Shown in pieces: positions 28,764 through 55,256 of a DNA stretch of 64,000 nucleotides. Origin of the DNA: an uncultured Shimia sp. (GTDB lineage: Bacteria > Pseudomonadota > Alphaproteobacteria > Rhodobacterales > Rhodobacteraceae); assembly GCF_947493595.1 (NCBI RefSeq), contig NZ_CANLRL010000002.1, forward strand, positions 310,001 through 374,000, written 5' to 3'. The translations under genes were made by a program, and so were the position numbers. The notes beneath the pieces were generated by a model. It was not told the origin of the DNA, made no database searches, and saw nothing but the letters and a program-made list of their open reading frames with translations. Every line of letters starts with the position of its first letter. Position 1 is the first letter of the stretch.

Positions 28764-28792
28764 GGGCAAAATTTTTTAACCAAGAGGCCATT

Positions 28793-37419: not shown

Positions 37420-38625
<1,206 letters not shown>

Positions 38626-38667: not shown

Positions 38668-39429
38668 TCAAAACTGAAAGCTTTGTTTCTTGTGTCCATC
38701 CTCAAGTGCCTCCTGCACGTTTCGGATGTTTGGTACCAAGCCCATGATACTGGCAGAGTTTTGCCCGCGTGTTAAAAGCGCGTCATCAACCTGTTTGGCG
38801 TAGTTATCAAAATTCTCTGGCTTGATACCCACAAAGTTCAACAGCTCGGAGATGCGTTTGCGACCAGCCTCCGGGTCGGAATAAACATCTTCAAAATAAA
38901 CCACAAAAGGCGAAACATTGCTTTGCGTCATTTGTTCGGAAAGGGTTCGCCGGCTGTTGTAGCTGCGAGCCATTTGGTGCATTGCGCTCCGCTGATCAAT
39001 AGCATCCAGTTTGACCTTTCCGGATTGGATACTGTCGTAAATCTCTCGCACGCCATTGCCACCCCAAGCTCCGGTGAGCTTTGCCAATTCCAAAGATAAA
39101 ATGCGCTTTGGTTCGTCACGCCGATCCAAAATGATGTGCCGGTACCCCAATTTCGTGGCGCTGGCCATCAGTGCCAAATTGAACTCGTCTGGGATCAACT
39201 CATAACAGTGCTTGATGACGGGTTTAGTCTCGAGAGCGTGTAGAATGTTCTCTCGTGTTGCTGTGGGGGAGCCGTTTTCCTGCCAGTGCTTTACGATCCA
39301 CCCTAGTACGCGATCCACATTAAAAGGCTCGTGTTGAAAACTTGGAAACTCTGATAAGTCTTCGAGCAAAGCGGCGAGGGTGGTCCCTCCTGTGCGCTGC
39401 ATTGTCCAAACAATAAATGGGGCGCTCAC
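38668..39429 (-). CDS. Stf0-like sulfotransferase
   Basis: A 253-residue enzyme starting at GTG 39429, which has AGGAAGAG just upstream; the longer frame starts at TTG 39489 without such a site. The P-loop motif WTMQRTGGTTLAALLED is near the N-terminus (residues about 8-24). IILDRRDEPKRILSLELAKL corresponds to the 3'-phosphate region, and a VVYFEDVYSDPEAGRKRI block follows. The arrangement resembles the Stf0 trehalose sulfotransferase type. Substrate here is probably the surface glycan or a glycolipid. Confidence 0.75.
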   Translation of the reverse strand: MSAPFIVWTMQRTGGTTLAALLEDLSEFPSFQHEPFNVDRVLGWIVKHWQENGSPTATRENILHALETKPVIKHCYELIPDEFNLALMASATKLGYRHIILDRRDEPKRILSLELAKLTGAWGGNGVREIYDSIQSGKVKLDAIDQRSAMHQMARSYNSRRTLSEQMTQSNVSPFVVYFEDVYSDPEAGRKRISELLNFVGIKPENFDNYAKQVDDALLTRGQNSASIMGLVPNIRNVQEALEDGHKKQSFQF

Positions 39430-39694
39430 GCGTCTCTTCCTTAACTTAAAATACTCACCGGAGGTAACATTGGTGAGGAATTCAGACAAGTGTTGCCAGT
39501 GATGGCCCGACGCAACCGCAACCAGATATGGTCATGTCGCAATCGCCGAAAGCTCGTCTGACCACACCCGACTTCAAATCTGAGCACACCACAGCGCCCA
39601 ATTCACAGGTTTCAGACAATAAAAGGAAAAGCCCCCTTTACCCCGCGCCTCAGGTAAGAAAAACATAGATACCGTTACTACATTTGTTGATTTT

Positions 39695-42600
39695 ATGCCA
39701 AATTCCAAAACGCACTTGTCGGACGCGTCTGTGCCGGCCATCTCGGTCATCGTTCCAGTATTTAACGTGTGTGATCACGTGGTGGCTTGCCTGAAAAGTA
39801 TACAGAGTCAAACCTGGACAGATTTTGAGGTGATTGTGGTGGACGACGGATCCACCGACAACAGTGGTGACTTGGCGGCCCGGTTCTGTGAGTCTGACCC
39901 GCGGTTTTATGTGATTACGCAGCAGAACCGCGGCTTGTCAGGGGCGCGGAATACCGGTTTGGAAGTGGCACGAGCTGAGGTCATTTCTTTTGTCGATAGC
40001 GATGATTGTATTGCACCCCAGTTTTTGGAGCACCTTTTTGCGGTCTTGCAGGAAAGTGGAAGTGATTGGGTTTCCTGCGCGATGAAATCTTGCTTTTCTG
40101 ACGGGACATGGTCGGAACATTCGACAATTCATGGCGCACCTGTTCCGTCAGAGGAGGTTGATGCCAAGCGGTATGACTTTTCCAATTGGTCTGATGTGAT
40201 CCGCCACTTTCCATCAGCGTGGAACAAACTCTATCGCCGCAGTCTGATTGGTGACTTGCGCTTTGACGAAGGCACCTGGTTTGAGGATCACAGCTTCTTT
40301 CAGCGCTTGGCCGCGCGTACCGACCATATTCAGCATCTGTCACTGCCTCTTTATCTACAAACCCGTGGACGTGACGGGCAAATCACTTCATCTGACAGCG
40401 AGCGCGTGTTTGAACAGTTTGATGTGCTGCGGCGGCTGCGTGCCATTTTGATGGAGGGGCCGCATACTGGCGCTGAAGCCGCATTTTCAACACTCGCCAG
40501 CCGCTTAATCAGTGAACGCAGTTTGGTTTTGCACGATCCAGAACGGCGTGCCCGTTTCGCTGCTGCCGCTGGTGATTTTCTAAGCGGTCACGGCCTCTTG
40601 TTTTCAACATCTGACCACAGTGAGATCGCAGCAAGCTGGGGTTTGGAGATGGCAGATGAGCTGCCGTTGAGTCTTTGTATCCTCTGGCAATCGGAACCGG
40701 TGTCAGAGCTTCAAGTGACACTAGAGAGCCTCGCAGAACAGTTTGCGGTGGGATTTGAAGTCATGTTGGTCTGTCGCTCCAGTACGGTCGCGTCAGAGGT
40801 GCTAAATTTAAATCCCAATCTGCGGGTGTTTGACTGTTCCAAACGGCCGATCACAGAGCTGTGGCAAGAGGCCAAAGGACGTCTGGTGAATGTGCTGCGG
40901 CCCGGCGTGACGTTGGAGCCTTATGTGTTGGTCCACCGGGTCAACAACATGCTGCGCCATCAGGCGGAAATGGGACTGACGGCCTATCATGTGCGCCCGA
41001 CCGCATCTGAAGAGGGGGAAATCCACTATCACAATGGGTTTGTGGACATGCGCAGCTTGCCATCGGGTACGCCGGAAAATGGCATGGTCAAGCTGGCGCC
41101 GGACACCGCTCTTGCGATGGCTCCAGAATTGTCAGCCTGCATGTTTGACCGTGGCTTCCTGCAGGAACAGAGCCTGTTCTTAACGCAGTCACCTCGAGCG
41201 GGCTGGGCTTTGCAATTGGCGGCAGCCATGCTGTCGAGGCATGTGCATTACCACCGCTGGGCAGGGGTCACGGTGCCGCAGGACACAGGCGATATGGGCG
41301 CCTTGGGAAAAGGACACTCCGCTCTTGTCAAAGCCTTGCCGGGGCAAGTACAGCGCGATTTGCCACCGGGATGGCAACGCCGACTTTTTGACCGAGCCTA
41401 TCGTGCAGAAGCGCTGTCTCGTATGGAACAACCTCGCCTCAAGCGACGGTTATTTCTGATAGAGGCAATGGTCCAGGCCGCACGCTTCCAGTTAAACGGA
41501 CTTATGCCGCAGGAAGCCGGGCTTGATTTACCGGAGCTCCAAGGAACAGATTGGGTGCTAGATCCCATTGGTCTGGCACGTTTGGTGCTCAGGCGCCCAC
41601 GGGGCCGATCTTTGCTGGAGCGACAAAAAGATCTTGATGCCCGCGTCAAAGCGCGTCGGACAATGGATCAAACCCAAACGCTTCTGGTTTTTCCCGCATC
41701 AGATGAAAGCCAATTCACCTGCATTGCCGATTTCACAAAAGCGGGCTACGCAAATTTCGACTTTCTGTCTGACGATCGACTTTCGGTGCCGGTTCATTTC
41801 TCACTGCGCCAAAAAGAGAGTTGTGTTGTGTTTAACCGCCGCGACAACAACGGTTGGGGTGAGGAGCGAAGCTGGCCGGTTGTCTTACCAAAATCTGTGG
41901 TTGAAGTGACTGTCCACATTTTGGGTCGCCACGTCAGGCTTCATCTGGATGGTGAAGTGTTCTGCGAATTTGATGTGCCACTAGGACGTGTCTCGCAGAA
42001 ATCCGGCGTTCTGGATATTGCGTTTCTCGGTTTGAAGGGCAAAATTTCTCCGGTGGAAATTGTACCGGTTTTTCCCACCCGCGCCCTCCGTCTCGGCGAA
42101 AGGCTTGTGCTGCAAGCCGCTTGCTCTGCTGACACGCATCAAGTGATTGACTTAAAAACAAAATGCGCACTCCCGGCGACCACTATTTTGACTGTCTCAG
42201 ACAGGTCCGGATTACAGGTAACCGTGCCGGGCCGCTTGTGGATTGACGTGGCGCAAGACGAATCCGCTGCGCTGTGTTTCCAACTGCAAACAACACAGGG
42301 TGATCCCGTTGGCCCACCGTTGCAATTGACGCGTCAAGACTTCGCCCGTCACGTGGAGATCCTGTTGCGACGTCATCCAAGCGGCACAGACACAACTGTC
42401 GTGCTGGCCGCGTTGGAGCACATCCACAATGCCGGTATTTTTTCAATGCTCAGTCGTGACGCCCAAGAGACCGCCCAAGACCTTGCCGCGTTCTTTCGGC
42501 TCGAAAACTACATTCAAGGTCCGTCTGATGCCTCTAGCGCACCGGATCGGTCTGCTGCGGCAGACTCACTTGTGGCGGAGGTCGACCCGGAGACGCAAGA

Positions 42601-45600
42601 AATTGACCGTGCGTTGGCAGTTCTGGCGAAATGCCTCAAGGCGGGCAGCAAGGAGGATCCACTTGATGTTGTCGCGCAGCTTGTAGTGTCTTCGAATGCA
42701 CGCCAAGCGGTCTATTTATCTTTGGGAGAATTTTTCGCGCGCCAAGATCAGGACTTTGAAACCTATTTTGCACTGGTGAGTGCCGCGGGCACAGACCGAT
42801 ACGTCCCGAACGGGCATCCTTGGCACGACTCTGCAGTGTTGCCTTTCTTGTTCATGCAGGGCGACATGCAATTGCTTGTGGAGACTTTAGCCTCCCTAAC
42901 CAAGCCCTTTGACGATTGGATTGTGACCACCACGCTGTCGTGGGTCGTGCGTCAAGCCTTGCATTCCAACCAGGTGTCTGACGCCCACCGACAAGACCTG
43001 CTCGCCGCCTATATGGCGTTCATTTCTAATCGTGCCTTAGACTATTGGGACCGCGTACATTGTCGAGAATTGACTTTGGCTGCCGTAGATCTGGCTGTTC
43101 ACAACCAGGCTCGATCAACCAAGCAAGCGCGTAAACTCAATCACTTTTTGGCGCGCAACTATGGTTTGTCGCGCCTGTTTTGGGATCTGTTGGATCAGCG
43201 GGAGAATGCTGTCCTATCCTGTGAGCTGGCAAGCGCAAAAGAGCATTTCTCTAACCTGCGCGATCATGAAAGCAACCCCCAGGAGGCTGATTACGCTTTG
43301 CGCTTCTTCGAACGCTTGCGCTCTCCAGATGTTGCGCGCGTGCGCTATGAGATTTTTGGACCTTCGGGCCTTCCTTTGTCTGAGAATGCCGCGCCCACAC
43401 TTGATGCGTTGTCTGAGGTATTTGATGAGCCGGCGCTGCCAGCCTTGCGCTACATGGCAGCGCCCAACAGTGCATCCGTCGACAGCGGGCTGTCCGCAGC
43501 GGTCTCAGCGCATCTGCCCCGTCTGATAAAGTATCAGCCCAGAGCGCCCTTTTTGGCAATGCAGCAGGATGTGGCAAAAGATATTGCTGCGTTGCTTGCG
43601 GCACCAGACCAGGTCCTTGATCTGGAAAGCTTCGATGATCTCATGCACCGATGCCACTTGTTAGGAAGGAAGCGGGATAAATTCCTGGGGATCGCGCTAC
43701 GCATTGTGCTGATCAACGGGTTCAGCCAAGTCCCCCAACAATCATCCGTTATGGATCGCATTGTGCAACTGATCAGGGATCAGGTTGCGACATTTGAAAG
43801 CGAGAGCAAACTGGCTCTGGCCAACTGCACGCCAGTCCAATTGGCCCTGGCGAAGCTGCGTCATGATGGTGGTGATCCCGGCATTGTACGGGAATTGGTT
43901 GATTTGCTACTCGGAGTCGAAAGTCAGTTACCAAATTATCCTGACACACTGGAAGAGGGGCTTGGCGGGTCCCCTCTGTATGACACAATTGTCACGGTTT
44001 TCTCCTGTAAGCCCCATCTGAACACGCGCATCCCAGCGTTGCGCAGTGGGTGGTTGCGCCTGTTGGAGGGGCTCGGCGTGCCCTACGTGATTGTGGTTGG
44101 CGATGGTGACGGTCGCAAGGAAGGTGATGTGGTGCATCTGGATGCGCCGGACACCTATGAAGGCCTGCCTCAGAAAACACTGGCCACAATCCAATGGGTG
44201 CATTCCAAAACCAATTTTGGGCATATGGTGAAAGTGGATGATGATTGTTTTCTCAACGCTCCATTGTTCTTTCAGTCTCTAAGCTACCGAAAATTTGATT
44301 ACTACGGTCGCAAGCTCATACGGGAGGTTGGAGGGCTTGATCGGGTTTGGCACCAGCAAAAATCCACGACACAACGGGGTCGCATGGAACTCGATAAATC
44401 GCCGGAACCGTCCACTTATGCTGACGGCGGATCCGGGTACGCTCTCAGTCGAAACGCCATGGCTGCGGCGTTGAGCGCGGCGCAAACGTCCGCGGGTCAG
44501 GATCTCATCCAAGTGTCCTTTATGGAGGATAAGTTGCTGGGCGATTTGCTTGGTTTGCGTGGGATTTCGGTTGTGAATGAGGACTATACCGTAACCGTGC
44601 GGCGCCGGATGCATAGCAGCGGCATTCCTGTACCCTCCTGGCAAAATGGCTTTAACAGCAGTTTGACCGCGCCCGTGCATTTTGTGCATATGGACACGGT
44701 TGAAGGCCAGCAGGAGGCAGTTGCGGGGCTAACCAAGCTTGAGCTGACTCCCAAAAAGATTTGGCCAACCTATCAAAAGGTGCGTTTGGGCTATCAAAGC
44801 AATGCGCTTGAGTTGGTGTCGCCAGAAGCGCGCTTACACCAAGCGCGTCACGCAGAGGTCGCCCTTGTGGCCTGTGTGCGCAACGAGATGTTCATTCTAC
44901 CGCATTTTCTGGATCATTATCGCAAGTTGGGCGTTGGTGCCTTTTTGATTGCGGATAACGCGTCTGATGACGGTACGTTGGAATACCTCGCAGAACAGCC
45001 AGATGTATCCGTCTTTTCTGTGGATACGGATTATCGCCTGTCGCGCTATGGGGTCGCTTGGCAACAGGCCCTCTTGGCAGAATATCGGGTCAATAAATGG
45101 AGCATCGTTGCTGATGCGGATGAGCTGCTTGTTTGGCAAGAAAACCAAACCCAAAGCTTGCCGGATTTGCTTGCTGAGCCCGATTTTACTCAGGCCGAGG
45201 CTGTCCGATTGTTTATGCTTGATATGTATCCCAAAGGTCCGCTTGAAAATGCGCGATTTACCGGCAACCCGTTTGATGAGGCTGGCTATTGTGACCGCGT
45301 GCCATTCCTGCGCAATTTGCCTGCCTTCGGGCCTTTTTCCGATGGGCCTACGTGGACAAGCGCTCTGCGCCACCGCCTGATACCAGGTTCACGTCCCAAC
45401 CTGTTTGTGGCGCAAAAACTGGCCTTGTTGCGTTACCAACCTTGGATGCGTTTGTCTGCCGGCTTGCACTATGTTGGCGACGCGCGCTTGGCAGACCGTG
45501 AATTGATTTTGGCGCATTTCAAATACAACGCGGATTTCCGTCGTAAAGCGCAAACAGAGGTCGCCCGTGGTCAGCATTTCAATGACGCTGAGGAGTACCG

Positions 45601-45721
45601 GAAATACTTGGCACTGGCATCTGAGGGGCGCAGTGTGATCTACGATTCTGACTGGTCGTCACATTGGACGGAGACGTCCTTTGCACAGAAGATTTTTGGC
45701 GCTCAGACCAAAGCAGAGTGA
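39695..45721 (+). CDS. 2008-aa chimera: GT2, galectin-like, GT31-like and GT2_4/GT92-like domains
   Basis: Residues about 14-250: GT2 (ISVIVPVFNVC, VVDDGSTDNSG, FVDSDDC). About 323-640: a second, degenerate GT2-like part. About 665-800: galectin-like module (H701, R705, then W721-G-E-E-R725). About 860-1420: helical. About 1428-1650: GT31-like beta-galactosyltransferase (ALRSGWLRLLEG, YEGLPQKTLATIQWVH, DDD at 1515-1517 in KVDDDCF, ADGGSGYALSRNAM, MEDKLLGD). About 1720-1990: GT2_4/GT92-like (VACVRNEMFILPHFLDHY, ADNASDDGT, DADELLVW). No membrane segment. It could add several residues in sequence to one acceptor. No good ribosome-binding site at ATG 39695. Confidence 0.83.
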   Translation: MPNSKTHLSDASVPAISVIVPVFNVCDHVVACLKSIQSQTWTDFEVIVVDDGSTDNSGDLAARFCESDPRFYVITQQNRGLSGARNTGLEVARAEVISFVDSDDCIAPQFLEHLFAVLQESGSDWVSCAMKSCFSDGTWSEHSTIHGAPVPSEEVDAKRYDFSNWSDVIRHFPSAWNKLYRRSLIGDLRFDEGTWFEDHSFFQRLAARTDHIQHLSLPLYLQTRGRDGQITSSDSERVFEQFDVLRRLRAILMEGPHTGAEAAFSTLASRLISERSLVLHDPERRARFAAAAGDFLSGHGLLFSTSDHSEIAASWGLEMADELPLSLCILWQSEPVSELQVTLESLAEQFAVGFEVMLVCRSSTVASEVLNLNPNLRVFDCSKRPITELWQEAKGRLVNVLRPGVTLEPYVLVHRVNNMLRHQAEMGLTAYHVRPTASEEGEIHYHNGFVDMRSLPSGTPENGMVKLAPDTALAMAPELSACMFDRGFLQEQSLFLTQSPRAGWALQLAAAMLSRHVHYHRWAGVTVPQDTGDMGALGKGHSALVKALPGQVQRDLPPGWQRRLFDRAYRAEALSRMEQPRLKRRLFLIEAMVQAARFQLNGLMPQEAGLDLPELQGTDWVLDPIGLARLVLRRPRGRSLLERQKDLDARVKARRTMDQTQTLLVFPASDESQFTCIADFTKAGYANFDFLSDDRLSVPVHFSLRQKESCVVFNRRDNNGWGEERSWPVVLPKSVVEVTVHILGRHVRLHLDGEVFCEFDVPLGRVSQKSGVLDIAFLGLKGKISPVEIVPVFPTRALRLGERLVLQAACSADTHQVIDLKTKCALPATTILTVSDRSGLQVTVPGRLWIDVAQDESAALCFQLQTTQGDPVGPPLQLTRQDFARHVEILLRRHPSGTDTTVVLAALEHIHNAGIFSMLSRDAQETAQDLAAFFRLENYIQGPSDASSAPDRSAAADSLVAEVDPETQEIDRALAVLAKCLKAGSKEDPLDVVAQLVVSSNARQAVYLSLGEFFARQDQDFETYFALVSAAGTDRYVPNGHPWHDSAVLPFLFMQGDMQLLVETLASLTKPFDDWIVTTTLSWVVRQALHSNQVSDAHRQDLLAAYMAFISNRALDYWDRVHCRELTLAAVDLAVHNQARSTKQARKLNHFLARNYGLSRLFWDLLDQRENAVLSCELASAKEHFSNLRDHESNPQEADYALRFFERLRSPDVARVRYEIFGPSGLPLSENAAPTLDALSEVFDEPALPALRYMAAPNSASVDSGLSAAVSAHLPRLIKYQPRAPFLAMQQDVAKDIAALLAAPDQVLDLESFDDLMHRCHLLGRKRDKFLGIALRIVLINGFSQVPQQSSVMDRIVQLIRDQVATFESESKLALANCTPVQLALAKLRHDGGDPGIVRELVDLLLGVESQLPNYPDTLEEGLGGSPLYDTIVTVFSCKPHLNTRIPALRSGWLRLLEGLGVPYVIVVGDGDGRKEGDVVHLDAPDTYEGLPQKTLATIQWVHSKTNFGHMVKVDDDCFLNAPLFFQSLSYRKFDYYGRKLIREVGGLDRVWHQQKSTTQRGRMELDKSPEPSTYADGGSGYALSRNAMAAALSAAQTSAGQDLIQVSFMEDKLLGDLLGLRGISVVNEDYTVTVRRRMHSSGIPVPSWQNGFNSSLTAPVHFVHMDTVEGQQEAVAGLTKLELTPKKIWPTYQKVRLGYQSNALELVSPEARLHQARHAEVALVACVRNEMFILPHFLDHYRKLGVGAFLIADNASDDGTLEYLAEQPDVSVFSVDTDYRLSRYGVAWQQALLAEYRVNKWSIVADADELLVWQENQTQSLPDLLAEPDFTQAEAVRLFMLDMYPKGPLENARFTGNPFDEAGYCDRVPFLRNLPAFGPFSDGPTWTSALRHRLIPGSRPNLFVAQKLALLRYQPWMRLSAGLHYVGDARLADRELILAHFKYNADFRRKAQTEVARGQHFNDAEEYRKYLALASEGRSVIYDSDWSSHWTETSFAQKIFGAQTKAE

Positions 45722-45742
45722 CCTACGTCGCCAGCCGGTTCT

Positions 45743-47236
45743 TTAAGAGGCTTGTACCGGCGCGTAATGGGTCATCAGCTCATGAATATGCGTGTCCATT
45801 GTGGTGGGCGCACGCGCGGACCGCCAATAGGCGTCCATATCGATTTCCCCTTTTAAAATGGTGGAGATCCGAGCGCAGAATGCCTGAACGTCTCCCGCCG
45901 GAAACACCATTTCTGGACAGTTTGCGAGTTCCTGCGCTCCCCCCATATCCGCGGTCAGCAGCGGGATATGACGGCTGTGCAATTCAATGGCGACCTGCGG
46001 TAGGTTGTCGTGCCAAAGCACTGGAACCACTCCAACATCAATGCCCGCCAAAAGTGCCTCCAGATCATCGTGGGAATATCCATCCACATGTGTCAGCTCC
46101 GCAAGTCGATTACCAAGCTTGTCTAACCGTGCCATGGTTTCCTCGTCACCTTGCCTGGCTGCGGCAGTAAAGCGCACGCGCTTTGCTAGCTCGTCTGGCA
46201 GTGCTTCCAGCGCGTCGAGAAGGAACATGAAGCCTTTGTCGCGCCGCATGTAGCCGAGAAACCCCAAAGTGAACGTGCCATCGCCGCGCAACAGCTGCGC
46301 GCGCGGCGGCGTGCGCTCAAACGCTGCAGCCTGCTGAGTGCCAATGTAGCTGGTTATGCAGATCTCTTGGTCCAAACCGTATTGAACCGCAATGTTCCGC
46401 ACTGCCTCCGACACACACAGAACCAAATCGCAATTTTGGTTGATGGTTTTCACCATTTCCGCCCGCCGGAGGACAAACTTCTCTGCAATCGGAGCGCTGT
46501 CTTTAGTCCTAGCTGGCGGCGTTGCTGATTTTGGTTTGAGAAGCTGCCTCAGACGTTTCTGAAGGCCAACGGCGCGTCGCCCAAGTCGCATGACCCAAAC
46601 AAAGCTAAAGTCGAACCCCCGGCTCCCCGGCTCCAAGCCAGCTTTTTTAAGACGAAAGGACAGCCCATTTGCCAGTTTTATGTGATGTGCATCATGACCG
46701 CCGGTCACACACTCAGCGCATTTGCGCCCGTTCGCAAAATCTTTGCAGGTTTCTTTTTCTTGGTACCAAAAATTAACCTGCGGGCAGAACGGGTAGTAAT
46801 TGTGCAGAGAGAAGATGACTTTGGTATGTGGCCACTTTCGCTTGAGGGCCAGCGCAGACACAGGCAGCCCCTCAATGTTGTTGAAGTGAATCACGTCATA
46901 GGGGCCGGTCTTTTCGACAAAATCAAAGAATGCTGCTTGCGTTGCGCTGTGGTCGACTTGTGCCAGATCCCCAAAGCAATGATGCGCCGGTGCCAAGACG
47001 CCGGAATTGATGATTTCATAGTGACGTGGCTGATTGCGGTTTTTGCCGTGCCGCAGCGGCTCCCAGCGCACCTCTCTGGCAGGCAAGTCGTAGGCGAGCC
47101 CTGCTGACAAAAAGCTGACTTCTACATCCTTTTTCTGCCCCAACTCCGCCATCACATTGCGTTGGTATATCGACACCCCACCGCCGCGACTTTCCGCATC
47201 AAGGTAGTCGACCCAGTTGTAGTAGAGAATTTTCAC
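45743..47236 (-). CDS. GT4-family glycosyltransferase
   Basis: A 497-residue GT-B enzyme. The N-terminal domain (ILYYNWVDYLDAESRGGGVS with the Gly-rich loop; VIHFNNIEGLPVSALALK) contains a Cys cluster (YPFCPQVNFWYQ, then CKDFANGRKCAECV) common in one GT4 subgroup. The C-terminal GT4 domain starts near residue 310 (TLGFLGYMRRDKGFMFLLDA) and includes DVGVVPVLWHDNLPQVAIEL with the donor-site Glu. The GTG start is preceded by GGAG and overlaps the upstream sulfotransferase by 4 bp. Confidence 0.88.
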   Translation of the reverse strand: MKILYYNWVDYLDAESRGGGVSIYQRNVMAELGQKKDVEVSFLSAGLAYDLPAREVRWEPLRHGKNRNQPRHYEIINSGVLAPAHHCFGDLAQVDHSATQAAFFDFVEKTGPYDVIHFNNIEGLPVSALALKRKWPHTKVIFSLHNYYPFCPQVNFWYQEKETCKDFANGRKCAECVTGGHDAHHIKLANGLSFRLKKAGLEPGSRGFDFSFVWVMRLGRRAVGLQKRLRQLLKPKSATPPARTKDSAPIAEKFVLRRAEMVKTINQNCDLVLCVSEAVRNIAVQYGLDQEICITSYIGTQQAAAFERTPPRAQLLRGDGTFTLGFLGYMRRDKGFMFLLDALEALPDELAKRVRFTAAARQGDEETMARLDKLGNRLAELTHVDGYSHDDLEALLAGIDVGVVPVLWHDNLPQVAIELHSRHIPLLTADMGGAQELANCPEMVFPAGDVQAFCARISTILKGEIDMDAYWRSARAPTTMDTHIHELMTHYAPVQAS

Positions 47237-48342
47237 TGCGACTCCGGTTTTGAGGGGGCAAGACGTTTCTCGATGTCTGCCAAACGCGTGTTTAACTCGT
47301 AAACATCCTTGTGAAGCCGATCACGCAATCTGGCATTATCTTGTATTAGAAAACTAATGTATTTTAGCATTTCAACTCTGTCTGGCGTATCAGGAACTGG
47401 CGGGTGAGTCGCAAAAGAGTCGGCCACAGGCGCAGTATTTGGGTTGTCTTTCATTGCCTCTAAGCCGCGACGTGACGCTTCAATCACTTCATCAAACTTC
47501 AGCGGTTTTGTATCATCTGACCGATGGCCATCTAACTGTTGAGCCATACATGACTTCAGCCAGTCCGCCAGATCCTCACTCATGCCAGTGTTTTGCGTGA
47601 TTCGAGTGAGTTCCAGAAATCGCTCTTCAAGGCGCAGATTGATCCTGGGGCCAGGCACATCCCAACGGCCCGCATTTTTGCCGCCAAAAGGAATACCCAA
47701 TACACCAAGGAAATCCTTAAAAAGACCGTCGTTTTCACGCAGTGCCTCACTGTAGGGGCGCACGACGACGGATTTTTCCCCAAACAGTTCGATCCATGGC
47801 TTTAAGGCAAGGTCATAGTCGTAGTGGATCGGTTCCATGATGTCACAGACGGTGCTGTTAAAATCTGGCACGGGTTGTCTTAGTTTCACCAGTTGATTGT
47901 ACCATGACCGCAAATGCGCATCTGGCCGCCGCAAAAACGCGATAATCTTGAAGTTAAACTCAGTTTTGACTGGGGTAATGATGTCTGTGAAAATTTGGGC
48001 GGCAGCTGGATTGGCCCCCATACGCATAAATTCTTCCGAGCTGATGAGCACTGAGGGACATTGGCTTTTGGTTACGTAGTCAAAGAAGTTATTCCAGCGT
48101 GTGCGCGCAGGAACGTCATTTTGAAACCCGTATAGCAGCGAAGGCACGCCAGCTTCACGGTAAACCGAAAAAGCCAGTTGCGAGTGTTTGGCCATATCGC
48201 AGAACTCTTCCGGGTAATCCACACCCTTGTTCCACAAAGTTCCGAGTTCTCTCAGAGTTTGCCTGTTGCTGTTCAAAAAGACCTGCAGAGCCGTAGTGCC
48301 GGTTTTGTAGTGGCCTATATGGATGTAAATGGTTTTGGTCAT
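47233..48342 (-). CDS. Sulfotransferase-like protein
   Basis: About 369 residues from ATG 48342 (a TTG two codons earlier is possible). The P-loop motif IYIHIGHYKTGTTALQVFL is at residues 5-23, and IIAFLRRPDAHLRSWYNQLV near 135 is the 3'-phosphate-binding region. A central PYSEALRENDGLFKDFLGVL block follows. A short coiled coil ends the protein (LRDRLHKDVYELNTRLADIE). Coupled to the GT4 gene by a 4-bp overlap, so glycosylation and sulfation steps are probably co-expressed. Confidence 0.8.
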   Translation of the reverse strand: MTKTIYIHIGHYKTGTTALQVFLNSNRQTLRELGTLWNKGVDYPEEFCDMAKHSQLAFSVYREAGVPSLLYGFQNDVPARTRWNNFFDYVTKSQCPSVLISSEEFMRMGANPAAAQIFTDIITPVKTEFNFKIIAFLRRPDAHLRSWYNQLVKLRQPVPDFNSTVCDIMEPIHYDYDLALKPWIELFGEKSVVVRPYSEALRENDGLFKDFLGVLGIPFGGKNAGRWDVPGPRINLRLEERFLELTRITQNTGMSEDLADWLKSCMAQQLDGHRSDDTKPLKFDEVIEASRRGLEAMKDNPNTAPVADSFATHPPVPDTPDRVEMLKYISFLIQDNARLRDRLHKDVYELNTRLADIEKRLAPSKPESQ

Positions 48343-48449
48343 GTTCAATTCATTAGGTAAACTGGGTGCCTGAAACAGCTACACCATGAGCAGGTAAAGC
48401 GGCGGGAGGCAATGCAAAAGCATGGCGCCGATCAGAGACATTGGCCGGT

Positions 48450-49121
48450 TCATTTTTTTGCACGACCGCGGGACATAATTTCTAAATGGGCCTCTACCGC
48501 TTCATGAATGTCTTCAAAATACTGAAGATGCCCATTTGACAGCACCACGCCTGAGTCACAAAAGTTTCGCACTTGTCCCATGTCGTGACTGACCAAAATG
48601 GCACTGGAAGTTTGCATGCGTTCCTGGAAAAGTTCGCGGCTTTTGGCGCGAAACACAGCATCACCCACAGCTGTGACTTCATCCACCAGGTAGGTGTCAA
48701 AGTGAATGCCCATGGAGACACCAAATGCCAATCGCGCCTTCATTCCCGAGGAATAACTGCGCACCGGCATAAAGAAGTGATTACCCAATTCGGAAAATTC
48801 ACGCACGAAATCACAAAGTTCGTCGCTGTCCACGCCATAGACTCTGGCGACAAAGCGGATGTTCTGGACACCGGTTAGATTGGCGTGAAACGATCCGGCA
48901 AACCCAACCGGCCAAGAGATCGAACCATCGCTCACAACGCGACCAGAATCTGGTCGCAAGGTTCCCGCAACGATTTGCAGCAGGGTGGATTTCCCCGCGC
49001 CGTTACGTCCCAATAGCGCCAAGGAGCGGCCACTCGGAAGCTCCATATTGAGGTTATTGATCACAACCTTCTTGTGCCCGCGCACGCGAAAGCTCTTCAC
49101 GAGGTTTTCAATTCGGATCAT
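48450..49121 (-). CDS. kpsT: Capsular polysaccharide ABC exporter ATPase (KpsT type)
   Basis: ATPase of the ABC-2 polysaccharide exporter. The 223-residue protein has Walker A LLGRNGAGKSTLLQIVAG, signature SYSSGMKARLAFGVSM, Walker B with VDEVTAVGD and the H-loop VSHDMGQ. The short length without a C-terminal carbohydrate-binding domain is typical of KpsT/CtrD/BexA. Fifteen bp downstream of the KpsE-type gene on the same strand. The partner permease is 1.6 kb away on the other strand. Confidence 0.92.
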   Translation of the reverse strand: MIRIENLVKSFRVRGHKKVVINNLNMELPSGRSLALLGRNGAGKSTLLQIVAGTLRPDSGRVVSDGSISWPVGFAGSFHANLTGVQNIRFVARVYGVDSDELCDFVREFSELGNHFFMPVRSYSSGMKARLAFGVSMGIHFDTYLVDEVTAVGDAVFRAKSRELFQERMQTSSAILVSHDMGQVRNFCDSGVVLSNGHLQYFEDIHEAVEAHLEIMSRGRAKK

Positions 49122-49136
49122 GGGTCCAGCGCCACC

Positions 49137-50693
49137 TTAGCTTCGATCGCGAATGGAGTAGTACACCAGCGTCAAGATCGACCACGAGAGCAACAGGCAA
49201 AGTGCTGCCAACGCCACAATGGTGAACCGCTTTGGATACTCGCTGGACTCCGCAAGCGTAGGTGGAACAAATGTGGCCAGATAGCGGCTTTGGCGCTGCG
49301 CTTTTGCCCGTGCCACATCCACAGCGGCCAAAGTCGCGCGATACGTGCCTTCAGCATACTCCCGGTCAACAACTAGACCTTCGTATTCCGCAATCAGATC
49401 CGGATAGTCTTCTTGCCCAGCCCCGGTTTCGATGGATTCCGTGGCGAAAGCTTCCCGTTCCAGTTTGATACGGTCTTGAATGGCGGCAATACGCCGTTGC
49501 ACTTGCGAGATGCGTGGGTCACTTGCAGATGTCGTGCTTTTGAGCAAGTCATGTTCGATCAGTGCCTCTGCCAGCTGCTGCTGAAGGTTGCTCATGACAC
49601 CCATGCGACCTTGCAGATCTGATGCGGGATCTACGATCCGTGTCCGAGTTCGAAATGCCGTCAGAGCCTCGCGAGCCTGTTTCAAGCGTTCAACAGAGGC
49701 CTCCAGGTCTTCGCGTGCATAACGCATAGCGTCATCGCGAGCCTGATCGTTCAGAGCATTGATCATGGCTTGGCTGTGAGCCACGATACTGGAAGAAATT
49801 GCGTAAGCCGTTTCCGGGTCAAACGCTTGCACCCGCACATCAATAAGTCCTGACGTGCTGTCGAGGGACACGCGGATAATCCGTGACCAAAACCATTCCA
49901 AATCTTCAATGGTTGCATCCGGCCACAGGGAGAAAACCGGGTCTTCCTCCCAGTATTGGCTGAAATGGGCGCGCAGACCAACACTGTCTTCAACCAGGCG
50001 CACCATGCTTTGGCTCAGAATGAACTGATACAGAATTTCACCATCGCCTGAACTGTTGCCGCCTGCCAGTTGCGCAAGCCCTCCCAATATTTCCTGAGCA
50101 CCAGCGCTCTCTTCCTGGCGCACAGTAAATCCAGTGACAGAGCCATACTGATCCTTGGCGACACCCCATAGGTAACCAGTAATGCCGCCTAGCGGCAGTA
50201 CAACGAGCAAAAAGAAAGACGCGACAATCACCCAATGTCGAGTGCTCATACGGGCGGCCCTTGCGGGGGGGGTGGATTTGGCTTTGGGAGGCTCATTTGG
50301 CTTCTTTGGAATCTGAGCAGGGGGGGGCGCAGGTTTTGGCACCGGCAACTTTTCGGTCTCGGCGCCCTGAGTCTGCGGCGTATTGTTTGTGGCCGCGGCG
50401 CTCTTTGTGTCGGGCTGCTGCTTCGACGCGTTGTCTTTTACGTCTGTGGCTTGCCCGTTGCCAGATCCACCTTGGCTCGGCTTTTGAACCTTCTGAGCGG
50501 CGGCACTGCCGCCCTTCTCGTCGTCATTGTTTGCAACAAGATTTAGTTTTTCGGGGTTACCTGGCGCTGCACCTACGGAAGCGGGTTTGGAGGCCGCTTC
50601 GGGTTTTTGCTGCTTCGGTGTGTTAATATCACCTTCGGAAACAGAATCTTGAACAGCTTTAGGTGCACCTTGCCCCTGGGATGCATCTGACAT
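49137..50693 (-). CDS. kpsE: Capsule export inner-membrane protein, KpsE type, with N-terminal extension
   Basis: Periplasmic adaptor (PCP-3-like) of ABC-dependent capsule export. The 518-residue protein has two membrane segments: about 152-172 (WVIVASFFLLVVLPLGGITG) and about 485-510, close to the C-terminus. A large periplasmic region with coiled coil (about 310-415) lies between. Unusual is the roughly 150-residue cytoplasmic N-terminus, low-complexity and rich in Pro, Lys, Gln and Ala. Usual KpsE/CtrB/BexC proteins have only a short cytoplasmic tail. AAGG precedes ATG. Divergent from the permease gene. Confidence 0.88.
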   Translation of the reverse strand: MSDASQGQGAPKAVQDSVSEGDINTPKQQKPEAASKPASVGAAPGNPEKLNLVANNDDEKGGSAAAQKVQKPSQGGSGNGQATDVKDNASKQQPDTKSAAATNNTPQTQGAETEKLPVPKPAPPPAQIPKKPNEPPKAKSTPPARAARMSTRHWVIVASFFLLVVLPLGGITGYLWGVAKDQYGSVTGFTVRQEESAGAQEILGGLAQLAGGNSSGDGEILYQFILSQSMVRLVEDSVGLRAHFSQYWEEDPVFSLWPDATIEDLEWFWSRIIRVSLDSTSGLIDVRVQAFDPETAYAISSSIVAHSQAMINALNDQARDDAMRYAREDLEASVERLKQAREALTAFRTRTRIVDPASDLQGRMGVMSNLQQQLAEALIEHDLLKSTTSASDPRISQVQRRIAAIQDRIKLEREAFATESIETGAGQEDYPDLIAEYEGLVVDREYAEGTYRATLAAVDVARAKAQRQSRYLATFVPPTLAESSEYPKRFTIVALAALCLLLSWSILTLVYYSIRDRS

Positions 50694-50715
50694 TATGTGC
50701 CTTTGTAAAGCATAA

Positions 50716-50743: not shown

Positions 50744-50777
50744 TCATTTCCGAAACGCTAGTATTGGAATCTTATCT

Positions 50778-51602
50778 ATGTCCTCTTCTAACGACGCCTC
50801 CTTTCCGCCTGCACAGCGACCCAGGCAAACACGGTCTGCTCGATTTGGTACGTTTCGCTCCGTTGCAGCATTGATACTTCGGGAAATGGGATCTCGGTAT
50901 GGGCGGTCTCCAGGAGGGTACGTTTGGGCGTTTCTTGAACCGCTTGGCGGGATAATCATCATGACCATCGGGTTCTCTCTAATTATCCGTTCGCCGCCAA
51001 TTGGGACCAGTTTTTTGTTGTTTTATGCAAGCGGAATGCTGCCATTCTCGCTGTATATGTCACTGTCCAATAGCGTTATGCAGTCGTTCAGGTTTTCCCG
51101 CACTTTGTTGAAGTATCCGGCTGTCACGTGGGTGGATGCTGTGTTGGCGCGCTTTTTGCTGAACGCGCTAACAGGTTTGATCGTGATGATTTGTTTACTC
51201 GCTGGCGTTCTGGTCGTTTCAGACACACGTGCGGTTTTAGATTATGTTGCTATCTTACATGCTGTTTGGATGACCTGTTTGATAGGGTTGGCGGTTGGCG
51301 TGTTAAACTGCGCGCTTAGTGGGATGCTGCCTGTCTGGCAGCAGGTTTGGAGCATTCTTTCACGCCCACTATTCCTGATGTCGGGTATCTTCTTTTTGAT
51401 CGATGCCTTCCCGGACAAAGTTCAAAAATTCTTGTGGCTCAATCCCGTAGCCCACGCCATTTCATCCATGCGCGCTGGATTTTACCCAACCTACCGTGGC
51501 GAAAATGTGGATCTTGTCTATGTGGCGGTCTTTGGCTTGATCACATTGTTTTTCGGGATCGTCCTGTTGGTCCGATATCATCGGGAGATATTGAACGGTT
51601 AA
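50778..51602 (+). CDS. kpsM: Capsular polysaccharide ABC exporter permease (KpsM type)
   Basis: Integral membrane half of the ABC-2 exporter; translocates lipid-linked polysaccharide across the inner membrane. The 274-residue protein has a cytoplasmic N-terminal amphipathic part (LILREMGSRYGRSPGGYVW) and six membrane segments, ending with FGIVLLVRYHREILNG. The block PLFLMSGIFFLIDAFPDKVQ and LNPVAHAISSMRAGFYPTY is highly typical of KpsM/CtrC. The stop shares the palindrome TTAA (51599-51602) with the stop of the convergent GT2 gene. Confidence 0.93.
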   Translation: MSSSNDASFPPAQRPRQTRSARFGTFRSVAALILREMGSRYGRSPGGYVWAFLEPLGGIIIMTIGFSLIIRSPPIGTSFLLFYASGMLPFSLYMSLSNSVMQSFRFSRTLLKYPAVTWVDAVLARFLLNALTGLIVMICLLAGVLVVSDTRAVLDYVAILHAVWMTCLIGLAVGVLNCALSGMLPVWQQVWSILSRPLFLMSGIFFLIDAFPDKVQKFLWLNPVAHAISSMRAGFYPTYRGENVDLVYVAVFGLITLFFGIVLLVRYHREILNG

Positions 51603-52627
51603 CCATCCGGCCTTGGCGACGTCACCTTTGACCAGTCTAGTACCTGGGAGTGCGACGCCGAGGTCCGGCGCAGCAATCCGTCAACCACCGCGTGCCGCAG
51701 CAGTTTCAAAAATATCCGCTGCTGCCCTTTGTGATGCCGGGTTTTGAGGGCCCATTTCGGCAAAACCACAAACAGCAGCGGCGCAAAATACAGGCCGGCC
51801 GCTTCGCGGTACAACATCAACAGATTGCGGTGGTAATAATAGACTTTCCACAACGGTCGGAACCGGAGGTCGTTTTCGCCAAAAGTCGAGCAGTCATGCT
51901 CAAACTTGAGGTCAGGGATGAAGCCAATTCGTCCGCCCGCCTTGCTAAGTGTCAATGTGTAAAGCCCGTCTTCTCCGTAGACAAACAGGCGCCCGTCTGG
52001 ATACCCTACTTTGGCAACTGCCGCGCGCGACACAAACAATCCAACAAATGATGACACATCAATCTGTTTGGGTTGCCCTTGGTAGTCGTCTGGCGTGATG
52101 TGAAACCCATCTCGCCCACCACGTCCCAGCAGCGTATTCAGGAACACTTTTCCATGCCAAAATGGATTGCGGGAGGGCCGGTTCATGTCACAAATTTCGC
52201 CATGGGGATAGTAAACCGCTGCAGCCAATCCGTCCCACGGGGACACGTCCATCTCTTGAAATTTGGCAAAAGTTCCTGGGGCGGGCCGCCCGTCGTCGTC
52301 CATCACCACAAGCCAGTCGGGATCATATGTTTCGGTCACCAGACGCATTCCATGCTCAAATCCGCCAGCGCCGCCACGATTTTCTGTCATGTTTTCCACA
52401 ATCAGCCGGGGATCGGTCTGCTGCGAAAGCCACTCATCCGTGCCGTCTGTTGAGGCGTTGTTCACAACCAACACGCCTTCAAGGTCATGAGTAGGCGCTG
52501 CCAACAGGCGGGCAACTGTCTGCTTGAGTTTCTCTAGGCGGTTAAATGTCACGACTACGGCAAATAGCCGCTTTGGATGCTGCACGTTTTGCAAAGAAAG
52601 AACCTTTTCCAATATGGCTGAACACAT
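51599..52627 (-). CDS. GT2 glycosyltransferase, GlfT2/rhamnosyltransferase-like
   Basis: A 342-residue enzyme from ATG 52627 (a TTG at 52639 adds four residues). GT-A motifs: FAVVVTFNRLEKLKQTV, VVNNASTDGTDEWL, then TENRGGAGGFEHGM and the metal-binding VMDDDGRPAPGTF. DVSSFVGLFVSR and GEDGLYTLTLSKAG follow as acceptor-side motifs. The MDDDG and NRGGAGGF phrases are those of the galactofuranosyl/rhamnosyl transferase branch of GT2. Both donor pathways are present here (glf; rfbCBDA), so either substrate is possible. Confidence 0.85.
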   Translation of the reverse strand: MCSAILEKVLSLQNVQHPKRLFAVVVTFNRLEKLKQTVARLLAAPTHDLEGVLVVNNASTDGTDEWLSQQTDPRLIVENMTENRGGAGGFEHGMRLVTETYDPDWLVVMDDDGRPAPGTFAKFQEMDVSPWDGLAAAVYYPHGEICDMNRPSRNPFWHGKVFLNTLLGRGGRDGFHITPDDYQGQPKQIDVSSFVGLFVSRAAVAKVGYPDGRLFVYGEDGLYTLTLSKAGGRIGFIPDLKFEHDCSTFGENDLRFRPLWKVYYYHRNLLMLYREAAGLYFAPLLFVVLPKWALKTRHHKGQQRIFLKLLRHAVVDGLLRRTSASHSQVLDWSKVTSPRPDG

Positions 52628-52746
52628 CCCAATTTCCAATCACGCTGTCAAACCGGCTTCCTCAAACAAGTCTGTGGACGTGACAAGTCGCCAACAGATT
52701 GATAGCACTCACATATTGATTGCAGAAGGGTTTAGGGGCGTGGGCC

Positions 52747-53316
52747 ATGAAAATTGAAACCACAAAATTGGACGGTGTCCTTTTGCTCACTCCTGACCGA
52801 TTCGGCGATGATCGCGGGTTCTTTAGTGAAAGCTGGAACAAGCGGCGGATGGCGGAGCACGGACTTGAGTTAGATTTTGTGCAAGACAACCATTCTCTTT
52901 CCTCCAAAGTGGGCACAATCCGAGGGCTGCACTATCAAACCCCTCCACATGCGCAGGCCAAATTGGTGCGGTGCGGTCGGGGGGCACTGTTTGATGTGGC
53001 TGTGGATATTCGGGCTGGGTCACCCACTTTTGGTCAATGGGTTGGGGCAGAATTAACTGCAGAAAATGGTTGCCAATTGTTGGTTCCGGTTGGATTTGCC
53101 CATGGCTTTGTGACCCGTACGCCTGACACTGAAATTGTGTACAAGTGCACTGACTATTTTGCACCAGATTGTGATCGCGCCATAGCTCACAATGATCCTG
53201 CTTTGGGCATCAATTGGGGCGTTGAAACAGTTTCGACCACACTCAGCGACAAAGATGCCTCAGCGCCGCTTTTGGCTGATATAGAGCCTGTTTTCTCATG
53301 GGAAGATCAAAAATGA
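52747..53316 (+). CDS. rfbC: dTDP-4-dehydrorhamnose 3,5-epimerase
   Basis: Third reaction of dTDP-L-rhamnose synthesis, double epimerisation at C3 and C5. The 189-residue cupin has the active-site base His62 in [26 protein letters not shown] near the N-terminus, and [20 protein letters not shown] with the conserved aromatic region. The ATG 52747 has AGGGGCG upstream; a TTG at 52720 is unlikely. The 3' end overlaps rfbB by 4 bp. Confidence 0.95.
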
Positions 53317-54359
53317 AGATCCTTGTAACCGGCGGAGCAGGCTTTATCGGATCCGCGGTGGTACGTCTGGCGGTCGCGCGCGGTCATCACGTTGTCAATC
53401 TTGATGCGCTGACCTACGCCGCTTGCCTGGAAAATGTCGCCTCGGTTGAGGCTAATCCGCTGTACGTCTTTGAGCACGCCGACATTCGAGACGCAGATGC
53501 TCTGACGCGAATTTTTACGGATCATCAGCCTGACGCGGTGATGCATTTGGCGGCGGAAAGTCATGTCGACCGGTCCATTGACGGCCCTGGTGCGTTTATC
53601 GACACCAACGTGACGGGCACCTACACACTGTTAGAAGCGGCGCGCACGTATTGGCAATCCAAAAGCAAGCCGCAGAGTTTTCGGTTTCACCACATTTCCA
53701 CAGACGAGGTCTATGGCACCTTGCAGGACGACGGGCAGTTCACCGAGGATAGCCCTTACGCGCCTAATTCGCCCTATGCCGCCTCCAAGGCCAGCAGCGA
53801 CCACTTGGTCCGCGCGTGGGGTGAAACCTATCACCTGCCATTTGTCATCACCAACTGCTCCAACAACTATGGCCCATTCCATTTCCCGGAAAAACTGATC
53901 CCTGTGGTTATCCTGAACGCGCTGGCAGGCAAAGATATTCCGGTCTACGGGCAAGGCTTGAATGTACGTGATTGGCTTTATGTCGAAGACCACGCTGACG
54001 CATTGCTTACCGTTCTGGAGAAAAGCAAAAACGGCCGGACGTATAATATCGGCGGTGAAAATGAAGCTCGCAATATCGACCTTGTGGAAAACATCTGCGC
54101 AATTCTGGATCGCTTACGCCCGACGGATCGACCCTATTCCAGCCAAATCACCTATGTACAGGACCGCCCCGGCCACGATTACCGCTATGCCATCGACCCC
54201 ACGCGCCTCCGCGAAGAGCTGGGCTGGCGTCCGTCTGTGACGCTGCAAGAGGGCTTGGAGAAAACCGTGCAATGGTATTTGGAAAATCCTGAGTGGTGGC
54301 AGGCTTTACAGGCGCGTGACGGGGTGGGTCATCGCCTCGGCACAACAAAAGGCACTTAA
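53313..54359 (+). CDS. rfbB: dTDP-glucose 4,6-dehydratase
   Basis: Second reaction of the dTDP-L-rhamnose pathway. The 348-residue SDR has GGAGFIGS (7-14), the catalytic Asp-Glu in STDEVYG (129-135), Tyr155/Lys159 in SPYAASKA, and the family block [23 protein letters not shown] 53313 overlaps the rfbC stop (ATGA) and has GGAAG at good spacing; an ATG five codons upstream (53298) is less likely. Confidence 0.96.
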
Positions 54360-54392
54360 CCGCGTGCCGCGGGAAACCGAACAGGAGCGACG

Positions 54393-55256
54393 ATGAAAGT
54401 TTTGGTGTTTGGAAAAACCGGGCAGGTGGCACGGGAATTGCAAGCTTTGTCTGGTGCAGAAGTTCAGATTGAAGCGTTGAGCCGCACTGAAGCAGATCTC
54501 CAAAATCCTCCCCAATGTGCCGAGCGTATCCTGTCAACAGACGCGGATGTCGTGATCAATGCAGCGGCTTATACAGCCGTAGATCAGGCCGAAACAGAGC
54601 CTGATATTGCAGAGATTATCAATGCAACGGCCCCCGGTGCCATGGCCAAAGCCGCCGCTGCTCGCGCTCTTCCATTCCTGCATATCTCCACCGATTATGT
54701 GTTTGCCGGGGCAGGGGACACGCCCCATGAGGTCAATGATCCAATTGGCCCGATAAACGAATACGGCCGCAGCAAATTGGCAGGTGAAGAGGCTGTACGC
54801 GACGCAGGTGGTCAACATGTGATCCTGCGCACCAGCTGGGTGTTTTCTGCGCATGGGGCCAACTTTGTAAAATCCATGCTGCGCTTGAGTGAGAGCCGTG
54901 ACGCCCTTTCCATTGTGGCGGATCAACATGGTGGACCAACGCCTGCAGGCGACATCGCGGCGACATTGCTCACCATGGCGCGTGGCCTTTTGGCGGGGAA
55001 ACCGTCCGGCACCTATCACTACGCGGGCATTCCCTCGACCACTTGGGCGGATTTTGCCCGCGCCACTTTTCAATCGGCCAACAAAACGGTCACCGTGACC
55101 AATATCCCCAGCAGCGGCTTTCCGACCCCTGCAAAACGCCCGCTCAATTCCCGACTGGATTGCGCCACGCTTCTGTCGGATTTTGGCATTACACCTCCGG
55201 ATTGGCAGGCGGGACTCACCCGCGTGATCACGCAATTGGAGCAGGGCGACACATGA
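54393..55256 (+). CDS. rfbD: dTDP-4-dehydrorhamnose reductase
   Basis: Final, NAD(P)H-dependent reduction to dTDP-L-rhamnose. The 287-residue SDR has the GKTGQVARELQAL dinucleotide loop, AYTAVDQAETEPDIA, the STDYVFAG block and catalytic Tyr/Lys in EYGRSKLAGEEAV. The LRTSWVFSAHGANFVKSML phrase is characteristic. AGGAGCG precedes the ATG. The 3' end overlaps rfbA by 4 bp. Confidence 0.95.
   Translation: MKVLVFGKTGQVARELQALSGAEVQIEALSRTEADLQNPPQCAERILSTDADVVINAAAYTAVDQAETEPDIAEIINATAPGAMAKAAAARALPFLHISTDYVFAGAGDTPHEVNDPIGPINEYGRSKLAGEEAVRDAGGQHVILRTSWVFSAHGANFVKSMLRLSESRDALSIVADQHGGPTPAGDIAATLLTMARGLLAGKPSGTYHYAGIPSTTWADFARATFQSANKTVTVTNIPSSGFPTPAKRPLNSRLDCATLLSDFGITPPDWQAGLTRVITQLEQGDT

Follow-up and report, generated by a model that had tools for sequence, protein, structure and literature searches.

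A bacterial glycosyltransferase of 2008 residues joining GT2, galectin, GT31 and GT2_4 domains in a capsule locus of an uncultured Shimia sp.

Galectins are known mainly from animals, fungi and plants, and in the plant galactosyltransferases GALT1-6 the galectin presumably precedes the glycosyltransferase family 31 (GT31) domain. The bacterial two-site glycosaminoglycan synthases K4 chondroitin polymerase (K4CP) and heparosan synthase 2 (PmHS2), which are capsule polymerases, have two GT-A domains in a row. Arabidopsis GALT1-6 are reported to contain PF00337 and PF01762 in one protein and to be predicted type II Golgi membrane proteins, with GALT2-6 acting on hydroxyproline and GALT1 on N-glycans (PMC4687291), and a survey that included 52 bacterial genomes describes galectin and GT31 as joined in land plants only (PMC5225481). 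In the human chondroitin synthases CHSY1 and CHSY3, a single chain carries GT31 and, after it, a further GT-A domain, and their inactive glycosyltransferase partner CHPF has a structural role, stabilising CHSY without catalysis (PMC12748766). Here, we describe a multi-domain glycosyltransferase encoded on a 64,000-nt stretch of DNA (the window; positions 310,001 to 374,000 of contig NZ_CANLRL010000002.1, assembly GCF_947493595.1) from an uncultured Shimia sp., which shares features with each of these systems. The arrangement is new, though each Pfam-matched domain belongs to a known family, and because the fusion of galectin with GT31 was confined to land plants in that survey (PMC5225481), the joining seen here is probably convergent with plants. 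Our literature search found, among the matches listed, no characterised protein with this domain order, no paper on a bacterial galectin-GT31 form and no galectin role in bacterial polysaccharide synthesis. The statement of the initial annotation that no enzyme with this order has been described is thus upheld within those matches, while the pairing of galectin and GT31 itself is known from GALT1-6 of land plants.

The open reading frame (ORF) is intact, starts with ATG and contains four Pfam families above their curated cut-offs, which are, from the N- to the C-terminus, Glycos_transf_2, Gal-bind_lectin, Galactosyl_T/GT31 and Glyco_tranf_2_4. AlphaFold2 models of residues 1-860 (mean pLDDT 91.4, pTM 0.86) and 850-2008 (mean pLDDT 93.0, pTM 0.92), both built with alignments of relatives, exhibit a modelled secondary structure with a GT2 domain, a second GT2-like domain (about 320-640), a beta-rich region (661-795), a small beta region, an all-helical region (about 880-1405), GT31 and GT2_4. 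The complete order of modules is GT2, pseudo-GT2, galectin, small beta-domain, helical scaffold, GT31 and GT2_4, as follows.

39695..45721, + strand: multi-domain glycosyltransferase, whole ORF; 23/80 relatives have GT2 in the same ORF
39722..40624, + strand: GT2 domain, residues 10-310, DxD (D101/D103/D104) and ED (197-198) intact; PF00535, E 1.3e-37
40637..41659, + strand: pseudo-GT2, residues 315-655, without DxD; profile against solved GT2, E 3.1e-17
41672..42094, + strand: galectin, residues 660-800, likely sugar-binding H701, R705, N714, W721 and E724; PF00337 over cut-off
42095..42328, + strand: small beta-domain adjoining the galectin, residues 801-878; predicted strands, low confidence at the end of the 1-860 model
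42332..43909, + strand: alpha-helical (solenoid-like) scaffold, residues 880-1405; all-helical, pLDDT mostly over 90
43982..44809, + strand: GT31 domain, residues 1430-1705, DDD 1515-1517, GSGYALS 1579-1585, ED 1611-1612, H1665; PF01762 and B3GALT6 profile
44837..45694, + strand: Glyco_tranf_2_4 GT-A domain, residues 1715-2000, D1807-x-D1809-E1810; PF13704, E 1.8e-25

The initial annotation had placed GT2, galectin, GT31 and GT2_4 in one chain, and each of them indeed lies over its Pfam cut-off. Its count of four modules agrees with the number of Pfam domains and is an undercount as regards the pseudo-GT2, the small beta-domain and the helical scaffold, and its segment 320-660 turned out to be a second, degenerate GT2 domain. 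Relatives were collected by scanning named genomes with an alignment of the GT31 region, and the best 80 of 118 were examined. The layout goes beyond chance, as the same order is found in one ORF in the 23 relatives given above and the catalytic residues vary little or not at all, with DxD-type sites conserved in three of the glycosyltransferase domains (GT2, GT31 and GT2_4).

The Glycos_transf_2 match covers residues 17-186, and D101, D103 and D104 are kept in 54/54 rows. In the fold search of the 1-860 model, CgT, a GT2 enzyme (5hea; TMt 0.75), comes out on top; the fold-search output prints no model ranges, and low overall scores signify that single domains match while their arrangements differ. 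The GT2 fold of the model starts at residue 16 with no helix before it. The second domain is homologous to solved GT2 enzymes, although at the DxD position it reads LRPGV in the window and is of D-A-G-D type in many relatives. As the DxD is kept in 0/38 rows, this domain is probably not catalytic, and by analogy it may parallel CHPF. K4CP and PmHS2 differ in having two active GT2 sites, and the galectin, scaffold, GT31 and GT2_4 are additional to their design.

The Gal-bind_lectin match spans residues 683-764 (E 3.4e-6, 27.0 bits against a cut-off of 22.1). A family galectin profile of 69 sequences (the window and 68 profile-picked relatives) matches PDB galectins at E 1.1e-19 with the pocket residues aligned on the same letters, and strands are predicted across the region in the 1-860 model. 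The classic sugar contacts of galectins are H44, N46, R48, N61, W68, E71 and R73 in galectin-1 numbering, and five of them (H, R, N, W and E) correspond to a predicted galactose-binding pocket that is strikingly conserved while the rest of the domain drifts. At a mean pairwise identity of 28%, conservation is highest in eight of 140 columns, namely W721 (69/69), H701 and N714 (68), S703 (67), N687 and R705 (66), and F690 and E724 (65). All five pocket residues are among them, E724 in a tie with F690; by a simple draw that ignores structural constraint and shared descent, the chance of five named columns falling in the top eight is about 1.3e-7. The full pocket occurs in 65/69 galectin rows, and in 65/78 members once the 9 uncut members with no galectin or a decayed one are included. 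The four incomplete pockets (L051, L073, L083 and L091) have lost two or three of the five residues each, and lost them together; these depleted galectins would be useful as natural controls. A galectin profile scan of 289 genomes of the class returned the window's own only, with at most 12 candidates scored per genome and misses therefore possible.

Between the galectin and GT31, the family search for the scaffold gave a single PDB profile match at E 0.5 and weak solenoid fold matches, and no family was found. The Galactosyl_T/GT31 match itself lies at residues 1474-1628 (E 2.7e-11, 44.1 bits against a cut-off of 23), and by sequence profile the region matches B3GALT6 (E 5.2e-9) and B3GALT5 (9.5e-7). 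In the fold search of the 850-2008 model, B3GalT6 (9sp7) is the rank 3 match (TMt 0.60, rmsd 6.2, 269 columns of the 277-residue target) and C1GalT1 (7q4i) is also matched (TMt 0.47). We assign the B3GalT6 fold match to residues 1430-1705 because the sequence profile places B3GALT6 there. The GT31-like domain with Asp-Asp-Asp at 1515-1517, GLPQKT and GSGYALS proposed by the initial annotation is thereby borne out, as is the structural match to GT31 that it had suggested looking for.

The acidic residues of this domain are invariant, with DDD 1515-1517 and ED 1611-1612 found in 79/79 rows, and H1665 is likewise kept in 79/79. In CHSY3, Mn is reported to be bound by the DxD and a His (PMC12748766). 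The five GT31 motifs, as quoted in PMC11538602, are retained to different degrees. Motif II, [FY][VLM]xxxDxD, is strictly present in 23/79 rows and in 76/79 if any first letter is allowed, the window starting with H. Motif IV, GxxYxxS, occurs in 75/79 including the window. For motif V, (E/D)DVxxGx(W/C), the form EDxxxG is found in 79/79 and the strict form in 0/79, the window having K for V and L as the last letter. Strict motifs I and III are each found in 0/79; motif I leaves the remnants R1445 (79/79) and W1453 (78/79), and motif III an aromatic residue and a Gly (79/79). GT31 membership is not excluded by the missing motif I, since motif I is also reported absent from GfsA, a GT31 member (PMC11538602). 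In the GfsA galactofuranosyltransferases a Gly precedes the catalytic Asp, whereas other GT31s are described as having Glu or Asp there (PMC11538602). The corresponding acid of motif V is Glu in 79/79 rows, on which grounds a pyranose donor is predicted for the GT31 domain.

At the C-terminus, Glyco_tranf_2_4 matches residues 1729-1826, and D1807, D1809 and E1810 are present in 78/78 ungapped rows. This domain alone gave no match to PDB sequences up to E 1. Of the GT2_4/GT92-like assignment in the initial annotation, the GT2_4 half is retained on the strength of PF13704; GT92 was set aside, being a sub-cut-off match in one relative only (16.5 bits against 23). No GT7 family is among the 6 Pfam matches of the ORF. 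The domain after GT31 distinguishes this protein from CHSY, where it is GT7, and the CHSY proteins are moreover Golgi enzymes without a galectin or an N-terminal GT2 pair. Plant GALT1-6 share galectin and GT31 in one chain, whereas the bacterial protein has two GT2 domains before them, the helical scaffold between them and GT2_4 after them.

Most of the 80 relatives are titled Rhodobacterales, the nearest being Shimia sagamensis, and some belong to other Proteobacteria. The recurrence of the domain order elsewhere, a check raised by the initial annotation, is found in Rhodobacterales, often with the protein split into two genes. Counting the window, GT2 belongs to the same chain in 24/81 members, which include every one of the 18 rows in the supported clade of the window. 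The galectin-scaffold-GT31-GT2_4 core is frequently encoded on its own, mostly by a gene of about 1350-1430 aa, behind a tandem-GT2 gene. By failure of the galectin profile and reading by eye, another beta-module takes the place of the galectin in 7 members, the galectin is decayed in 2 and 3 are cut. In those seven (L086, L089, L094, L096, L098, L099 and L104) the N-terminal 230 aa or so form another module, with a pattern by eye like GW(A/V/I)...R.DV...GF, for which no Pfam family was found in the three scanned (L094, L098 and L104). The tree was quick and midpoint-rooted, and in it gain is not separable from loss. Identity to Shimia sagamensis is 82% for GT31, 91% for GT2_4, 66% for the first GT2 and 44-45% for the pseudo-GT2, galectin and scaffold. 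The dN/dS ratios are 0.10 and 0.08 for GT31 and 0.05 and 0.04 for GT2_4 (against L026 and L028) and 0.23 for the galectin (against L028), all of them rough, since every defined dS exceeds 1 and several domains have no defined value. Galactosyl_T is rare, occurring in 2/398 sampled genomes of the phylum and 9/295 of the family, each including the window's own, and the other sampled genome of the genus has none. Two records titled Bordetella petrii (L054) and Methylobacterium sp. Leaf118 (L056) carry a galectin-GT31-GT2_4 gene whose GT31 region is 60 and 58% identical to the window, by either transfer or contamination.

The gene lies in a locus that also contains Gmd, a GDP-fucose-synthase-like epimerase, ManC, UDP-glucose dehydrogenase, Glf, likely sulfotransferases (two under and one at the Pfam cut-off), KpsM/T/E-type export genes, GT4, GT2 and rmlCBDA. 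The neighbours are listed below.

37420..38607, - strand: UDP-galactopyranose mutase (Glf); TIGR00031 over cut-off, homologue in 25/80 loci
38668..39489, - strand: probable sulfotransferase; Sulfotransfer_3 E 1.5e-4, 22.5 bits against a cut-off of 27, homologue in 25/80 loci
45743..47236, - strand: partner GT4 glycosyltransferase, convergent neighbour; Pfam, homologue in 45/80 loci
47233..48348, - strand: probable sulfotransferase; Sulfotransfer_3 E 0.034, under cut-off
48450..49121, - strand: KpsT-type ABC ATPase, polysaccharide export; ABC_tran over cut-off, polysaccharide-export ABC families under equivalog cut-offs
49137..50693, - strand: KpsE/BexC/CtrB-type export protein; TIGR01010 E 7.7e-57, 193 bits, under the cut-off of 437.5
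50778..51602, + strand: KpsM-type ABC permease; PF01061 over cut-off
51599..52639, - strand: GT2 glycosyltransferase of the module; homologue in 28/80 loci
52720..56131, + strand: rmlCBDA, dTDP-rhamnose synthesis; same order on plasmids L113 and L114

KpsC/KpsS-type genes lie elsewhere in the genome, outside the window (PF05159 ORFs of 673 and 442 aa on C1), and with the KpsM, KpsT and KpsE types at hand locally the sequence matches indicate an ABC-transporter-dependent capsule locus. The 80 loci were scanned for up to 9 kb per side, often cut by contig ends, by blastp at E up to 1e-8 over 40% of the query; homologues of the neighbours were found for GT4 in 45, for KpsT, KpsM and GT2 in 28 each, for KpsE in 27, for Glf in 25 and for the two adjoining sulfotransferases in 25 and 21. 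In 15/80 loci there was no match to any window neighbour tested. Across the 295 family genomes, Glf is found in 8/9 GT31-positive against 56/286 GT31-negative genomes (Fisher p 2.5e-5, kinship uncorrected) and the partner GT4 in 8/9 against 8/286 (p 9e-11, kinship uncorrected). The sole GT31-positive exception for both is G216 (L025), which has a different arrangement and a short contig.

Roseobacter biofilm plasmids with an rmlCBDA operon have reportedly been described by Michael et al. 2016. The window order from 39695 to 56131 (large glycosyltransferase, GT4, sulfotransferase, KpsT, KpsE, KpsM, GT2 and rmlCBDA) is repeated on two Roseobacteraceae plasmids, those of Tropicibacter oceani and Sulfitobacter sp. 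W027 (L113 and L114), which, like the biofilm plasmids, have export genes, GT2 and rmlCBDA beside replication initiator protein A. Both plasmids are complete and carry long genes of about 1982 and 2000 codons. The shared gene order in the window and on these replicator-bearing plasmids suggests that the module is mobile between replicons. On L113 the gene at the place of 47233..48348 is annotated as a sulfotransferase, a correspondence by gene position. Of 72,556 plasmid records, 5 carry the GT31 domain and the same five carry the GT4; they come from the genera Sulfitobacter, Tropicibacter, Thalassococcus and Palleronia; the gene is split in the Thalassococcus plasmid, which has another gene order, and in the four records that contain the greater part of the protein its label is glycosyltransferase, glycosyltransferase family 2 protein or hypothetical protein. 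The likeness to the biofilm plasmids has bounds, as Phaeobacter inhibens pPGA1_65 shares the export genes and glf while the five records with a GT31 domain do not include it, and the window copy is on a 707-kb contig.

Other genes of the window are unusual in their own right. The 1108-aa protein of 20564-23890 (+) combines Exostosin GT47 (438-607) with a weak GT10-like fucosyltransferase match (1002-1049, under cut-off), and is a second multi-domain transferase of the locus with families best known from eukaryotes. The 1053-aa protein of 15410-18571 (+) has the odd combination of an ArsP_1 permease-like region, FG-GAP repeats and an UnbV/ASPIC domain. No Pfam match over cut-off was obtained for 24012-25541, 25538-26488, 28760-29464, 34034-34924, 34921-36507 and 36665-37297, two of which have weak coiled-coil-type matches; the protein of 34034-34924 is 54-61% identical to ORFs in 4/80 loci.

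Kps-type capsules are synthesised in the cytoplasm and exported as finished chains, so that a lectin on a cytoplasmic transferase makes sense. With the domains, their order, their conserved catalytic and lectin residues and the capsule-locus context as computed above, we consider it reasonably probable that the protein is a cytoplasmic multi-active-site glycosyltransferase which assembles the sugar sequence of an ABC-exported, probably sulfated capsule and whose galectin grips a beta-galactopyranose of the chain. The N-terminal GT2, the GT31 and the C-terminal GT2_4 would each add one sugar, three different sugars in all, with the GT31 site adding a beta-linked pyranose, plausibly galactose. 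The second GT2, its metal site lost, would serve as structure or for acceptor binding, and the helical scaffold would set the spacing of the active sites. The galectin pocket would grip a beta-galactopyranose, most likely that laid down by GT31, so that the chain stays enzyme-bound for the following transfer; it would then be passed to KpsMTE for export. We infer the donors, linkages, lectin ligand, processivity, step order, polymerase activity and cytoplasmic place in this scheme. The ordered building of a multi-residue repeat, which the initial annotation proposed, is plausible. A more tentative extension, somewhat less likely than not, is that of a self-clamping capsule synthase built independently in bacteria, in which a functional cytoplasmic galectin holds the GT31-added beta-galactose and imparts processivity and order to a three-site assembly line.

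Several findings weigh against this proposal. The fold search of the 1-860 model listed 50 matches, all of them glycosyltransferase enzymes and none a galectin, so the galectin fold rests on the sequence profile and the predicted strands. Ranks 2-12 of that search belong to heparosan synthase 2 and K4 chondroitin polymerase, over 500-630 columns, and rank 1 for the 850-2008 model is human chondroitin synthase CHSY3-CHPF (E 3.7e-6). These ranks speak for the proposal, yet the matches are loose overall, at TMt 0.29-0.36 with rmsd 18-21 for the former two and TMt 0.28 with rmsd 24 for the latter, domain arrangements differing. In the pocket the equivalent of Asn46 is Ser in 67/69, as it is in the first repeat of galectin 4hl0, and that of Arg73 is not conserved (position 725 is R in 14/67). 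Since the galectin is replaced or decayed in 7 and 2, respectively, of 78 uncut members, it is not essential to the core enzyme. This turnover and the missing Arg73 equivalent would also suit a galectin fold that is a structural spacer only and binds no sugar. Such a spacer is unlikely, as its pocket residues are among the most conserved of a fast-changing domain and stand together in 65/69 rows, and as the 4/69 exceptions each lose two or three of the five at once. Finally, GT2 is not in the same ORF in 57/81 members (in a separate ORF, lacking or cut by contig ends), so a single chain is not required. The same count could be taken as a sign that an assembly error or a frameshift has merged two genes into the 2008-aa frame, which is refuted by the fused ORFs of 24/81 members, the window included and its relatives from other assemblies, and by the long genes of the two complete plasmids, and to which we attach almost no probability.

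The rival with the most substance retains the capsule and leaves out the polymerising. It holds that the three sites act once each and build a fixed, non-repeating oligosaccharide (linker, primer, branch or cap), as three active-looking transferases of different families beside the locus GT4 and GT2, the variable neighbours around the large gene and the proposal that CHSY-type enzymes are distributive (PMC12748766) would allow. Polymerases among the best fold matches of the 1-860 model and a large scaffold with a lectin, which suggest chain handling, speak against it without being decisive, and we regard it as doubtful, if a serious contender. The frequent Glf neighbour in turn raises the prospect that the GT31 domain transfers galactofuranose like fungal GfsA, with UDP-Galf from that enzyme, and both the association of Glf with GT31-positive genomes and a weak fold match of the 850-2008 model to GfsA (8yrl, rank 20, E 4.8e-3) are in keeping with it. 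With the invariant motif V Glu in the place of the Gly described for GfsAs (PMC11538602), this use of UDP-Galf was set aside as a leading idea and appears rather improbable; UDP-Galf more likely feeds the GT2_4, GT4 or GT2 enzyme instead. Acquisition of galectin and GT31 as a unit from a plant or alga, for which the union of the same two Pfam domains in GALT1-6 might be invoked, is very unlikely given that about 630 residues of beta-domain and helical scaffold separate them here, and given that galectin-less members retain scaffold-GT31-GT2_4 and have a different beta-module where the galectin would be, a pattern suggestive of modules being swapped on a bacterial core.

The bacterial family shows galectin and GT31 joined outside land plants, flanked and separated by further domains. 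What the galectin does in the plant enzymes, a question named as future work in PMC4687291, becomes testable in the bacterial protein, its pocket being conserved. The family may also be a source of defined and possibly sulfated capsules and of a multi-step glycosyltransferase that comes ready-made, and a self-clamping synthase, if true, would be a convergent parallel to the plant galectin-galactosyltransferases and would give galectins a role in bacterial polysaccharide synthesis.

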